DNA of 11,594 nucleotides, taken from assembly GCA_026785745.1 (NCBI GenBank), contig JAJAZO010000224.1, positions 1 through 11,594 on the forward strand. The letters run 5' to 3'. The stretch comes from Chitinophagaceae bacterium. GTDB taxonomy: Bacteria; Bacteroidota; Bacteroidia; Chitinophagales; Chitinophagaceae. Position 1 is the stretch's first letter. Every line of letters begins with the position of its first letter. Made by a program: the position numbers and the translations under genes. The notes under the pieces were generated by a model. The model was not told the origin of the DNA and did no database searches. It saw only the letters and a program-made list of their open reading frames with translations. Below, piece after piece: positions 5,975-11,303 of the stretch.

Positions 5975-6065
5975 GCCATCAATTACATGGATTACCACAG
6001 ATTCAATAAAAAAAAAGCTGCTGACGCAGCTTTAATAATTTGTGTTAATCCGTGTAATCTGTGGC
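5975..6065. repeat. Inverted-repeat element of the CACAGATTACATGGATTAA type
   Basis: The left arm 5975-6003 (core ATTACATGGATTACCACAG) and the right arm 6037-6065 (core GTTAATCCGTGTAATCTGTG) are inverted copies with several mismatches. Between them lies the hairpin at 6014-6033. The element begins right at the stop of the methyltransferase gene. The same arm sequence recurs at 8362-8390 and 8500-8528. Confidence 0.75.
6008..6033 (-). terminator. Hairpin with T-tract on the minus strand
   Basis: AAAGCTGC (6014-6021), loop TGAC, GCAGCTTT (6026-6033): a perfect 8-bp stem. Read on the minus strand, the stem is followed by nine T residues, the form of a strong intrinsic terminator. On the plus strand only TTT follows. 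It could work in both directions after the methyltransferase gene, yet its better orientation is against the neighbouring plus-strand genes. Confidence 0.6.
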
Positions 6066-6136
6066 CAAAAACTCCTTTAGCGGCTGTTTCCCGCCTTCGT
6101 AAACATTACCCGGAAAATCTTGTTATTTTTGTTCAT

Positions 6137-8319: not shown

Positions 8320-8327
8320 CGGGAGCG

Positions 8328-8528
8328 GCCACGAATTACACTAATGAATACAAATAATACAAGCCACAGAGTAGATGGATTAACACAGATTAATACATGT
8401 ACGCCACGAAATCACACCAATTTACAACAAAGTAAAACTGTATTCATTCGTGTAGTTTTGTGTAATTTCGTGGCTCAAAAAATGTGTTAGCAGTTTTTCA
8501 TCTGTGTTAATCCATGTAATCTGTGGCT
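8328..8528. repeat. 201-bp island of nested inverted repeats
   Basis: The outer pair is 8362-8390 and 8500-8528 (core ATGGATTAACACAGAT), 27 of 29 positions complementary by eye. A second family is GCCACGAATTACACTAATG at 8329-8347, GCCACGAAATCACACC at 8403-8418 and inverted TGTAATTTCGTGGC at 8461-8474. The inverted copy TATTCATTCGTGTAG (8441-8455) pairs with the left copy TGAATAC (8345-8351). The island fills nearly the whole gap between the DUF6986 and dehydrogenase genes and overlaps the DUF6986 stop codon. It has no coding content. RNA from it would fold into long hairpins, so termination is possible. Confidence 0.8.
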
Positions 8529-9957
8529 AACTCTTTCTTCTTCCCTGCAATATTTTGTAAAATGACCGGCTGCGGATTTCATCTATCGTTAACCCGGTTG
8601 CCATAGCTTCTTCTTCACTGATGGCTCCACAGTTCATCGCTTTCAAAAAGAAGTTGAGTAATCCCTGTCCCGTTGCTGCGTCATCAAAAATATCTCCGGT
8701 TAGTGTGGAGATAGCAGCTCTGTCAACAAATGTTTTCAACCGGTGAGTGGCGTCAGTAATGCTGCTTAAAAAGAAATTATACGTAGCTGCATAACGCATG
8801 GGCAGTTGTGCAGGGTTTAAATCCCAGCCCTGGTAAAACCCATTGATGAGTGAATGCATGGAATGATTGTATCCAATTCGCCAGGCATTCTGTACCGATT
8901 GCCGGTTTTCTTTTAATTGTTTTGAAGTTTGTTTTTCCCCGCGTTGAAGGCAAACGGGCATTACATAGTTGGCGCGGTCTGATAAAAATATTCCGGTGCC
9001 ACCTAATGCTACTTTGGTCATGTGATGGGCAAAGTCGCAAACAGGGTGAGCCATTGTCTGATATTTGGCGGTGATACCGCAGGAAGCTGTATAATCATAC
9101 GTACCAAAATGAGCCGCAATCAATCTTCTTTCGCCGGCTCTTATAATTTTCATTAATGGATTTCTTCCTTCATCATCCATAATAATTTGGGTGGCTTCCA
9201 CCATTGTTTCCATCTTTAAGGTGCCGGGAGTCAAATTATTTTTCTTCTCAATGATCTCGAATAAACGAACCATTGTGGTAACCTGTTCTGGTATGGTTAC
9301 TTTTGGAAGCATCACAATGAAATTGCCTGGAAGCTTCCCTCCTGTTTTTTCCAATAACGTAGTTAAGAAAATATCCATAGTTCTGACACCACGGCTTTTT
9401 AAATCTTCGGTGAAAGGCTTTATTCTTATTCCAATGAAAGGAGAAATTGTTTTTTCATTCATTCCTATTGCCAGTTCGTTAGCCGCATTGACGGCTGTTG
9501 CATCCTCCTCCTCGTCGGGGCGATTACCAAAGCCGTCTTCAAAGTCAATGCGAAAGTCTTCTACTGCTTCTGTTTGCAATTTTTGTACGATCTTATTATA
9601 TACAGTATAAGAAAGCCAGGCCGGGTGTTGCCTTCTTTCTGTTTCTTCCATTTTATTTAATTTTTTAATCAGTTTGTCTGCCTTCTTTTCATCATCGGGT
9701 AGTTTGTCACAACCTTCAAATTTTAATACGTTGGCTAATGTGATGAAATCAGGCGAATAGGTTTGTAAACTTTTCAATGCTATCTCACCCATCTTAATAC
9801 AGGTATCTGATTTGAAAAGATTAGCTCCGCCATAGACCGTATGCACGGCCTGCCTGTCTGGTTTATCTCCCGGATAGGTTTGTTGAAATTTAAGATTAGC
9901 TGTTTGTAAAGAATTAAGCAGTATTTCTGTTTCGATGTCTGCAATGCTGAAATTCAT
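8527..9957 (-). CDS. DUF6986 protein, CitE/HpcH-like aldolase-lyase superfamily
   Basis: The protein has 476 residues. The TIM-barrel core shows family landmarks in order: YGGANLF (42-48), FRIDFEDGFGNRPDEEED (135-152), GIRIKPF (176-182), VMLPKVT (215-221), LKMETMVEATQII (248-259), HFGTYDYTASCGI (283-295), HPVCDFA and FYQGWDLNPAQLPMRYAA (374-391). In the CitE/HpcH superfamily a Glu and an Asp like Glu250 and Asp288 hold Mg2+. These proteins are often labelled phosphoenolpyruvate kinase or aldolase, and occur with ureide-degradation genes in actinobacteria (memory). Its place after uraD and uraH suggests use of glyoxylate from ureidoglycolate, for example as an alternative to malate synthase. 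The reaction is not known and this is inference. The start ATG is 9955-9957; the TAG stop falls inside a repeat arm. Confidence 0.8.
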   Translation of the reverse strand: MNFSIADIETEILLNSLQTANLKFQQTYPGDKPDRQAVHTVYGGANLFKSDTCIKMGEIALKSLQTYSPDFITLANVLKFEGCDKLPDDEKKADKLIKKLNKMEETERRQHPAWLSYTVYNKIVQKLQTEAVEDFRIDFEDGFGNRPDEEEDATAVNAANELAIGMNEKTISPFIGIRIKPFTEDLKSRGVRTMDIFLTTLLEKTGGKLPGNFIVMLPKVTIPEQVTTMVRLFEIIEKKNNLTPGTLKMETMVEATQIIMDDEGRNPLMKIIRAGERRLIAAHFGTYDYTASCGITAKYQTMAHPVCDFAHHMTKVALGGTGIFLSDRANYVMPVCLQRGEKQTSKQLKENRQSVQNAWRIGYNHSMHSLINGFYQGWDLNPAQLPMRYAATYNFFLSSITDATHRLKTFVDRAAISTLTGDIFDDAATGQGLLNFFLKAMNCGAISEEEAMATGLTIDEIRSRSFYKILQGRRKS

Positions 9958-9972
9958 AGAAATAAGTTTTTT

Positions 9973-9989
9973 AGGAACACAAAGAACAC
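9973..9989. repeat. Left inverted arm flanking the GxxExxY gene
   Basis: AGGAACACAAAGAACAC is complementary at 16 of 17 positions to GTGTCCTTTGTGTTCCT at 10432-10448. It touches the stop codon of the GxxExxY gene. Confidence 0.7.
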
Positions 9990-10321
9990 TAAGAAGTGCT
10001 TTGATTTATTTTTGAATCAAACCCATTTAATACTATTTTAATACCATTTTTTAACAGTACGGTTTTAAAGTTTAGTATAAGGCCATGTCTTAAATTTAAA
10101 AATCGCAGATAAGTTAAAATCTGAGCTATATGAATATCCGCAATTGCTTCAATATTCTTTGTCTCAACAATAACCTTCTTTTCTACAAGAATATCTACTT
10201 TATAGCCACACTCCATCCTTATTTCTTCAAAAATTACCGGAAAAGGCTTTTCTGTTTCTACATTTAACCCTCTTTGTCTAAGACGATGGGCCAGGCAAGT
10301 TTGGTAAACACTTTCTAACAT
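9989..10321 (-). CDS. GxxExxY family protein, PD-(D/E)XK nuclease-like, start codon uncertain
   Basis: From the ATG at 10319-10321 the protein has 110 residues and begins inside the family's conserved block: MLESVYQTCLAHRLRQRGL. The nuclease-like core follows, with YKVDILVEKKVIVETKNIEA (Asp43, Glu54 and Lys56 are the D...ExK triad) and ILTYLRFLNLRHGLILNFKT. The family name motif normally sits just before, as G-P-G-L-L-E-S-x-Y. Here 24 more codons upstream (10322-10393) read in frame as INEEEIIKIILDEAFYIHK plus TIGPG, the expected N-terminal helix, but they begin with ATA and not a standard start, with TAA two codons above. So the start may be ATA, or the gene has lost its ATG and is decaying. 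Inverted repeats flank it. The function of the family is not established. Confidence 0.75.
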   Translation of the reverse strand: MLESVYQTCLAHRLRQRGLNVETEKPFPVIFEEIRMECGYKVDILVEKKVIVETKNIEAIADIHIAQILTYLRFLNLRHGLILNFKTVLLKNGIKIVLNGFDSKINQSTS

Positions 10322-10411
10322 TCCGGGCCCGATAGTTTTGTGAATATAAAAAGCTTCGTCCAGAATTATTTTAATTATCTCTTCTTCATTTATCCGTTAT
10401 TTAATTTTCAT

Positions 10412-10449
10412 TGTGTCCTTTGTGTTGCGTTGTGTCCTTTGTGTTCCTT
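10412..10449. repeat. Tandem 19-bp repeat, right arm flanking the GxxExxY gene
   Basis: TGTGTCCTTTGTGTTGCGT (10412-10430) and TGTGTCCTTTGTGTTCCTT (10431-10449) are adjacent 19-base copies differing at the last few bases. The second copy forms the inverted partner of 9973-9989. It ends at the uraH stop codon. Confidence 0.75.
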
Positions 10450-10803
10450 TTAAGATCCCCTGTAAGTAGAATATCCAAACGGATTCAACAACAGTGGAAC
10501 ATGATAATGCTCATTGCCTGTTATCGTAAAAGTTATTTCAACAAAAGGATAAAAAGTTACCAGGGCTTGTTTCTCGAAGTATTCCTTTGTTTCAAATTTT
10601 AACCGGTAAACGCCTGGCTCCAATATCGTTTCTTCTGCCAGAAAGCCGGCAATACGTCCATCGGTATCGGTAGTTCCGATAGCAATCTGCCTCCAGCCAA
10701 CCGTTACGGGGTCTTCTGGTTGTTGCAGAAATAAAAAAATTGTAATTCCTTCGGCAGGCTTGCCTTTCGAAGTATCAAGAACATGTGTAGTAAGCTGACT
10801 CAT
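10450..10803 (-). CDS. uraH: 5-hydroxyisourate hydrolase (transthyretin-like)
   Basis: UraH hydrolyses 5-hydroxyisourate, the product of urate oxidase, to OHCU. The 117-residue protein is the usual single-domain length, without a signal peptide, so it is cytoplasmic. Signature blocks are LTTHVLDTSKGKPA (His7 of the active site), TTDTDGRIAGF (Arg50), HYHVPLLLNPFGYSTYRGS (His101) and the C-terminal YRGS tetrapeptide that distinguishes HIU hydrolases from true transthyretins. The ATG overlaps the uraD stop in an ATGA arrangement, so the two are translationally coupled and co-transcribed. The repeat-flanked GxxExxY gene follows immediately. Confidence 0.96.
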   Translation of the reverse strand: MSQLTTHVLDTSKGKPAEGITIFLFLQQPEDPVTVGWRQIAIGTTDTDGRIAGFLAEETILEPGVYRLKFETKEYFEKQALVTFYPFVEITFTITGNEHYHVPLLLNPFGYSTYRGS

Positions 10804-11303
10804 TCCAATAATTTTTCAAGCCGGAGTTTAGTAATCATATTTTGTTCGTCTGCAGCAATCTGCATTTCTTCGTTGGGGCTATTGCTTAGTCTTGATTTTA
10901 ACAAGCCCAGCATTTCTTCTGCTGATTTTCCGGTAGCACAAACGATGAAGATATAGCCGAACTTCTCATGATACAAGCGGTTGCCTTCGGACAATGCCTG
11001 GATTGTTTCTTTAGCAGCAATGTTTACGCCACTTTGTTCTCCGGATGCCCATGCGGCTGTGGAAGCAAATTTTTTAGTAAGTGATTCTACATCTCCAATT
11101 TTCGGATGATGAGTAAATGCTTCTTTCCAGTCCTCCTTGTTACATGCATACCACATTTCTTCTGCATCTTCCAGTAATTCAACCAGGTCATCTGCCGGAA
11201 AATATGCCATCATCATTTTTACCCATGTGGAGGAACCACAACATTTCAGCAACTCTTCTTTGAGTTGTGGCTGACTTAATGTATTTAGTTCGTGTAATGT
11301 CAT
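10800..11303 (-). CDS. uraD: OHCU decarboxylase
   Basis: UraD decarboxylates 2-oxo-4-hydroxy-4-carboxy-5-ureidoimidazoline to S-allantoin, the step after UraH. The 167-residue protein shows FTHHPKIGD (catalytic His66), STAAWASGEQSGV (Glu89 region), NRLYHEKFGYIFIVCATGKSA and ITKLRLEKL with Arg161, all as in the family. I start at ATG 11301-11303. A GTG ten codons upstream would add VPPYAGWEG, but those codons come from an intergenic palindrome (TCCCGC/GCGGGA), so the longer start is unlikely. It overlaps uraH by four bases and follows allantoicase on the same strand, together covering late urate breakdown. Urate oxidase and allantoinase are not visible here. Confidence 0.96.
   Translation of the reverse strand: MTLHELNTLSQPQLKEELLKCCGSSTWVKMMMAYFPADDLVELLEDAEEMWYACNKEDWKEAFTHHPKIGDVESLTKKFASTAAWASGEQSGVNIAAKETIQALSEGNRLYHEKFGYIFIVCATGKSAEEMLGLLKSRLSNSPNEEMQIAADEQNMITKLRLEKLLE

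Follow-up and report, generated by a model that had tools for sequence, protein, structure and literature searches.

The window, by which we mean the whole 11,594-nucleotide stretch analysed here, is a contig (C224) of a 2.82 Mb assembly that comprises 483 contigs and is 73% complete. It carries an insert, a GxxExxY/PDDEXK_3 gene sited between uraH and DUF6986 within inverted short-repeat arms, which shares its direction with uraD, uraH and DUF6986 (Table 1). An earlier note on this DNA had claimed that the cassette splits uraH from the DUF6986 gene, and the TIGR and Pfam profiles that identify these genes agree with it.

The arms are 17 nt each, AGGAACACAAAGAACAC at 9973-9989 and its complement at 10432-10448, matching at 16 of 17 positions (94%) and separated by 442 nt. 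On the uraH side, the arm is extended by a tandem duplication of 19 nt, whose copies (10406-10424 and 10425-10443) are 89% alike. The uraH stop codon (10450-10452) lies immediately outside this arm, while the GxxExxY stop codon (9989-9991) shares one base with the DUF6986-side arm. The earlier note had described the arms, the duplication and their contact with both stop codons in the same way.

The open frame of the insert scored 129 bits against TIGR04256 GxxExxY (cut-off 35) and 125 bits against PF13366 PDDEXK_3 (cut-off 22), and it carries the G, E, Y, D, E and K of the GxxExxY motif and PD-(D/E)XK-type residues. Besides PF13366, no other Pfam match was obtained in the insert, and no HUH (Y1) transposase was found there. 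The sole in-frame ATG upstream of the motif (10411-10409) begins a run of four codons that ends at an in-frame TAA, and there is no ATG, GTG or TTG between that TAA and the motif. The window copy may be a pseudogene, have an unusual start or reflect an assembly error, and may itself be decayed.

Other intergenic gaps of the window hold gene-less hairpin-like repeats, those with CACAGAT and those with CACGAAT/CACGAAA words being interleaved at 8327-8528. For the window's own words, no convincing further hairpin was found in its genome, where seven places came up, three of them the cassette itself, against five for a reversed control.

Table 1. Positions of the cassette, its neighbours and the gene-less repeats in the window.
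Feature	Position	Strand	Profile or detail
Gene-less hairpin-like pair, CACAGAT-type words	5976..6068		Found by inspection
Interleaved gene-less inverted pairs, CACGAAT/CACGAAA-type	8327..8474		8334-8352 with 8439-8457; 8403-8426 with 8451-8474
Gene-less inverted pair, CACAGAT-type words	8362..8528		Arms 8362-8393 and 8497-8528, 91% complementary
DUF6986 gene, downstream neighbour	8527..9957	-	PF22484
DUF6986-side arm, 3' of the gene (inverted copy)	9973..9989		
Open GxxExxY/PDDEXK_3 frame including stop, without canonical start before the motif	9989..10396	-	
ATG, three codons and in-frame TAA ahead of the open frame	10397..10411	-	ATG within the arm
Arm on the uraH side (5' of the gene) with 19-nt tandem duplication	10406..10448		CACAAAG/CACAA words, 9-10 nt spacing
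uraH, hydroxyisourate hydrolase, upstream neighbour	10450..10803	-	TIGR02962, PF00576
uraD, OHCU decarboxylase	10800..11300	-	TIGR03180, PF09349

Inverted arms and word arrays in the GxxExxY family

Of 58 relatives, 36 had PF13366 matches, 110 in total and five of these in the window's genome, with G008 and G052 showing a fragment match only; the gene is absent from 22 of the 58. We took 94 of the 110 matches as loci and dropped five whose flank was shorter than 150 nt, leaving 89 for a flank test in which 300 nt of the 5' flank was aligned locally with the reverse complement of 300 nt of the 3' flank, at a threshold score of at least 14. Five of the 94 genes (L005, L038, L040, L071 and L094) lie less than 150 nt from a contig end, as if repeats had broken the assemblies.

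Inverted arms scoring at least 14 were found at 64 of the 89 GxxExxY genes of related genomes. The same threshold was reached by 3 of 114 neighbouring ORFs, by 1.4% of 7969 random placements, by 2.3% of mismatched flank pairs from the related genomes and by none of the shuffles. The result for the family is far beyond chance, and the ORF, placement and shuffle controls refute chance or composition as its source; with none of 30 ParE genes at the threshold, a property of any small mobile-looking gene is ruled out too. The window pair scores 14.5, which taken alone is only suggestive, given how often neighbouring ORFs and random placements also reach 14. The remaining 25 of the 89 genes scored below 14. 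When 13 low-scoring or dropped loci were read, words were found on at least one side in 11, and none were recognised around the flanks of L032 and L043.

A second, wider set was taken from a scan of genome contigs, the relatives being of a narrower clade. In this set (best 80 of 584), 53 of the 76 genes with usable flanks scored at least 14, as did 22 of 27 outside Bacteroidota, or 18 of 20 when Ignavibacteria and Chlorobi are counted in Bacteroidota. Those 20 genes, again from the best 80 of 584, belong to Planctomycetes, Verrucomicrobia, Acidobacteria, Chloroflexi, a betaproteobacterium, Nitrospirae, Nitrospinota and a Methanophagales archaeon. Mismatched pairs reached the threshold in 10.5% of cases (best 80 of 584) because similar words are common within this clade, and single cases may be wrongly binned contigs, since most records are metagenome bins. 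The named isolate genomes of Runella, Alkalitalea and Natronoflexus display the same pattern. The earlier note had stated that GxxExxY genes elsewhere lie beside similar repeats, which proved true and extends beyond Bacteroidota. Phage records gave no GxxExxY match, and plasmid records gave eight.

The arms are built from short words, among others CACAAAG, CACAGAT, CGCAAAG, CCGCAGAG, CACATAG, CACGAAA, CGGGAAG and GAGAAAAAG. Across 70 arm pairs, self-matching peaked at 8, 9 and 10 nt (z of 6.7, 5.0 and 4.5, respectively), and the purine-rich strand of the words faces inward. Using a strand-sense regular expression, which was written after the arms had been seen, we found inward arrays on both flanks at 30 of 89 genes in the related genomes, against outward arrays at 3 of 89; the corresponding figures in the second set (best 80 of 584) were 40 and 13 of 76. 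Spaced-word arrays on both flanks were found at none of 30 PF05635, 30 ParE and 30 Y1_Tnp genes.

Arm similarity rises with protein identity among the 65 genes with arms (Mantel rho 0.31, 0 of 999 permutations), also for pairs below 60% protein identity (rho 0.24, 0 of 999 permutations). With protein identity held equal, arm pairs from the same genome resemble each other hardly more, if at all, than pairs from different genomes, which rules out repeats that simply follow the genome. Word classes, assigned by regular expressions in 62 of the 65 genes, change 15 times on the protein tree, compared with at least 36 times in 200 shuffles. The arm type thus follows the protein and not the genome. 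The window's genome itself holds five GxxExxY genes with five different words, the second flank of one of them (L005) being cut by a contig end. At orthologous sites, similarity is 85% for the arms, 62% for the adjoining spacer and 55% for shuffled sequence, a comparison that leans towards the arms because the groups were chosen for a common word type.

Among 21 GxxExxY sequences, G, G, E, Y, D, E, K and F are invariant and Q and Y nearly so, a set of residues that we take to be consistent with an active, RecB/Cas4-like PD-(D/E)XK site. Solved structures gave no sequence match at E ≤ 1. The protein is under strong purifying selection, with a median dN/dS of 0.058 that was computable for 10 of 36 pairs (70-97% identity), the others being saturated. 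An in-frame stop is present in 14 of the 110 PF13366 matches.

Calling neighbours as longest ORFs, a rough method, we found the cassette directed with both neighbours at 53 loci and against both at 7 (both neighbours called at 79 of 94 loci); in the second set (best 80 of 584), it was 43 with and 5 against (58 of 80 called). Arm mismatches that keep a G-U pair numbered 62 and those that break the pair 66, with 72 and 68 in the second set (best 80 of 584). Recognition of the arms as DNA is favoured by this lack of an RNA-pairing sign.

Gene-less repeats and orthologous junctions

Of the 36 gene-positive genomes, 18 have CRCAAAG triplets at places away from PF13366 genes; none of the 22 gene-negative genomes has any. 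For CACAGAT triplets the numbers are 9 of 36 and 1 of 22, or 8 of 36 without places adjoining PF13366 genes; those of G018 are arms of its own gene only and were set aside, and in the single gene-negative case the triplets belong to an 8-nt microsatellite with which a contig begins. Reversed word patterns were found in none of the 58 genomes. A covariance model built from eight hairpins of the genome G022 matched 19 of the 36 gene-positive genomes and none of the 22 gene-negative ones, counts that are rough because palindromes match on both strands and no more than 80 candidates were scored per genome. Checked by hand, all genomes behind the counts of 18 and 19 have one or more listed places that do not adjoin a PF13366 gene. 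Taking any of the three word tests, 22 of 36 gene-positive genomes are positive against 1 of 22 (p = 1.6e-5); the co-occurrence is weaker among genomes of at least 2.5 Mb (21 of 34 against 0 of 5, p = 0.015). The small genomes of the genus (1.5-2.1 Mb) have no PF13366 gene, as if it had been lost with genome reduction.

Gene-less copies are abundant in the gene-bearing genomes G001 and G022. Of 16 CACAAAG regions read in G022, 11 start with the outer end TCCC[AG]C[AT]AA, which is also found in the arms of gene L070 of this genome. At least 18 of 36 hairpin copies in G001 (L343-L372) are near-identical and lie inside a larger MITE-like element with the ends GTAGTGTATC and GACACTAC, while the remaining copies have unrelated flanks; some hairpin copies in G022 are likewise embedded in MITE-like elements. 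The near-identical G001 hairpins are not taken as proof of self-mobility, their near-identity coming from the enclosing element.

Three gene junctions in congeners hold either the gene, gene-less repeats or neither. Eight of the genus's 42 genomes gave a DUF6986 match, and in seven of these eight, the window included, the gene is visible adjacent to uraH, L102 showing a partial DUF6986. Only the window has GxxExxY at this junction, which is kept without the gene in six congeners. In three of them, the gap contains gene-less words of another or a related type, namely a CACGAAGGACACAAAG word array with an inverted copy (L096), CTCTGTG words (L097) and one TTGCGTCTTTGCGG (L098); in L099, L100 and L101, the gap is short and has no recognisable words.

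The junction between ssb and a helicase gene was compared at 20 loci with both genes visible, L401 and L405 being one region. Twelve have a GxxExxY match, one of which (L390) is a fragment beside a hairpin, three (L386, L394 and L400) have gene-less word hairpins, and no words were seen at the remaining five. The words vary by species (CACAGAT, CACGGAT, CACGAAA, CACGAAT), and at the loci compared both arms change together between species. At the VWA-AAA junction, with both genes visible in 22 of 24 loci, five loci carry GxxExxY genes of two kinds, which share 28-36% protein identity and each have their own arms. L290 has a gene-less hairpin bearing the words of one of the two kinds, L280 and L283 have hairpins of 7-nt period, and the other 14 have short gaps or other sequence. 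In one of these VWA-AAA gaps (L285, genome G004), a GxxExxY cassette adjoins 7-nt-period remnants of AAAAGTA type, so that both repeat classes use the gap.

Inverted ends are present, and no target duplication was recognised by eye at the two junctions read. Many cassettes are common to congeners at one site, which suggests that movement is at best rare.

Interpretation and alternatives

The association of the gene with the repeats is established by computation. We regard it as reasonably probable that the cassette belongs to a widespread system of a gene and its cognate repeats, similar to RAYT/REP but based on a PD-(D/E)XK nuclease. The unit would be a hairpin of 7-mers such as CACAAAG, CACAGAT, CGCAAAG and CACATAG, spaced by 8-10 nt, with the GxxExxY gene in its loop, and gene-less hairpins with the same words would be its non-autonomous or dead form. 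From the arrangement of genes and repeats, we infer that the protein's most likely target, for both recognition and cutting, is its own words in double-stranded DNA. Such cutting would allow hairpins, whether or not they hold the gene, to be acquired, copied and replaced, much as in RAYT/REP though with an unrelated enzyme, and the window copy may have functioned in this way in the past.

The earlier note had proposed a mobile or repeat-processing unit whose protein acts on the repeats. The repeat association, which is beyond chance across genomes, the gene-less junctions and the co-occurrence of words and gene bear out part of this proposal, and at the uraH-DUF6986 site we saw neither a lack of association nor a cassette fixed across distant relatives. 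Target duplications were not recognised at the junctions read, congeners share many cassettes at one site and some gene-less hairpins have spread within other MITE-like elements, so that action on the repeats and self-movement stay putative.

A resident host module, meaning a domesticated DNA-binding or DNA-trimming system that serves a chromosomal task, is inherited with the genome and has the hairpins as its sites and not its offspring, would fit the many cassettes that congeners share at one site, the purifying selection, and arms that are kept while the neighbouring spacer drifts (in groups picked for a common word type). However, one site holds two gene-plus-arm pairs whose proteins are so dissimilar, other congeners show gene-less repeats or nothing, 22 of 58 relatives lack the gene and 14 of 110 matches have an in-frame stop, which together make such a module rather unlikely. 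The embedding of at least half of the examined G001 hairpins and some of those of G022 in MITE-like elements with unrelated ends is what would be expected if ordinary transposons, MITEs or RAYT-type transposases carried the gene and hairpins as passengers, GxxExxY having no role in their spread. Yet the other G001 copies have unrelated flanks, words or hairpins are present in G008, G029 and G055, which gave no Y1_Tnp match, and an arm type that tracks the GxxExxY protein is not expected of a passenger. The Y1_Tnp genes of the same genomes are flanked by different, G+C-rich palindromes and in none of 30 cases by spaced words on both sides, which rules out that the repeats belong to RAYT, and we judge transport as a passenger improbable.

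Base pairing between the arms within the RNA, serving to insulate the gene in the host operon or to excise it from there, a role that stems have in 23S rRNA intervening sequences, would explain why the cassettes are mostly co-directional with their neighbours (53:7, and 43:5 in the best 80 of 584). Against such an RNA stem, G-U-keeping mismatches are no commoner than breaking ones, and the near-constant word spacing in the arms would not be needed for pairing alone, which leaves a device at the RNA level very improbable. Chance or an assembly artefact might be suspected from the window pair by itself and from the metagenomic, fragmented assemblies, but the ORF, placement, ParE and Y1_Tnp controls and the recurrence of the pattern in named isolate genomes reduce its probability to almost nothing.

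Going beyond the cognate gene-repeat system that we prefer, it is plausible, though we advance it tentatively, that the GxxExxY genes of Bacteria and at least one archaeon form a separate gene-repeat class, in which the nuclease reads a series of 7-mers set roughly one turn of the helix apart, changes its specificity in step with both arms and acts as the driver of a population of gene-less hairpins. If so, this class would explain a large number of the repeats of CACAGATTA, CACAAAGGACAC and CGCAAAGGCGC type that are dispersed in such genomes. The association offers interspersed repeat families from Bacteroidota to Planctomycetes a possible origin and a protein that may recognise them, and it makes a named protein family of unexplained function testable. 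Should the protein read its words, the diverged protein-word pairs, which include different words at one orthologous site, would provide data on how PD-(D/E)XK specificity changes.

Comparison with known systems

In the literature covered, which included few subscription papers and preprints, we found no report of a link between GxxExxY and repeats, although an earlier one may exist elsewhere. In PMC8934634, GxxExxY appears in the context of a CRISPR-linked reverse transcriptase, and PMC12085832 also names it. The pairing of gene and repeats in many microbes points to a type of element that has been little noticed and is gained and lost in genomes.

The closest likeness is to the REPtron, which unites a RAYT/TnpA-REP transposase with REP/REPIN repeats (PMC3686654, PMC8266576). 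As far as these descriptions go, both have a small gene that its own repeat flanks in inverted orientation, further copies of the repeat dispersed without the gene (for GxxExxY at the level of the family, as in G001 and G022) and several protein-repeat pairs evolving together. In contrast to the GxxExxY protein, a relative of PD-(D/E)XK nucleases, the RAYT of these descriptions is an HUH, tyrosine, single-strand transposase. The GxxExxY repeats are series of 7-nt words, unlike the G+C-rich palindromes at the Y1_Tnp genes of the same genomes. When these genes (L444-L473) served as a positive control for the flank test, their own inverted palindromes were picked up in 14 of 30, presumably reflecting the known RAYT/REP arrangement.

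With MITEs and insertion sequences, the unit shares short, palindromic, intergenic and gene-less copies, but it encodes none of the known classes of transposase, the junctions that were read revealed no recognisable target duplication, and some hairpins are simply nested in such elements. A homing endonuclease gene likewise places a nuclease gene in the middle of its putative own recognition site, of which the arrangement alone is seen here; however, one site can hold cassettes with different arms, which homing through shared sequence does not explain.

PF05635 genes, which encode the four-helix-bundle protein of 23S rRNA intervening sequences and are multi-copy in 44 of the 58 genomes, are also small genes with inverted periodic arms in the same genomes, and 24 of 30 loci (L103-L132) scored at least 14. 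They differ in their unrelated protein, in a strict 7-nt period and in the lack of spaced CACAAAG-type words on both flanks at all 30 loci. These genes and their arms are possibly a second gene-repeat class, which would run parallel to that of GxxExxY if the latter is indeed a separate one. Their 7-nt-period arms may also bear on unexplained heptanucleotide repeats elsewhere. Beggiatoaceae have heptanucleotide TAACTGA repeats, the role of which is unsettled (PMC4679880). The 23S intervening sequence sits in an rRNA gene with PF05635, whereas the window insert sits between uraH and DUF6986 with PF13366.
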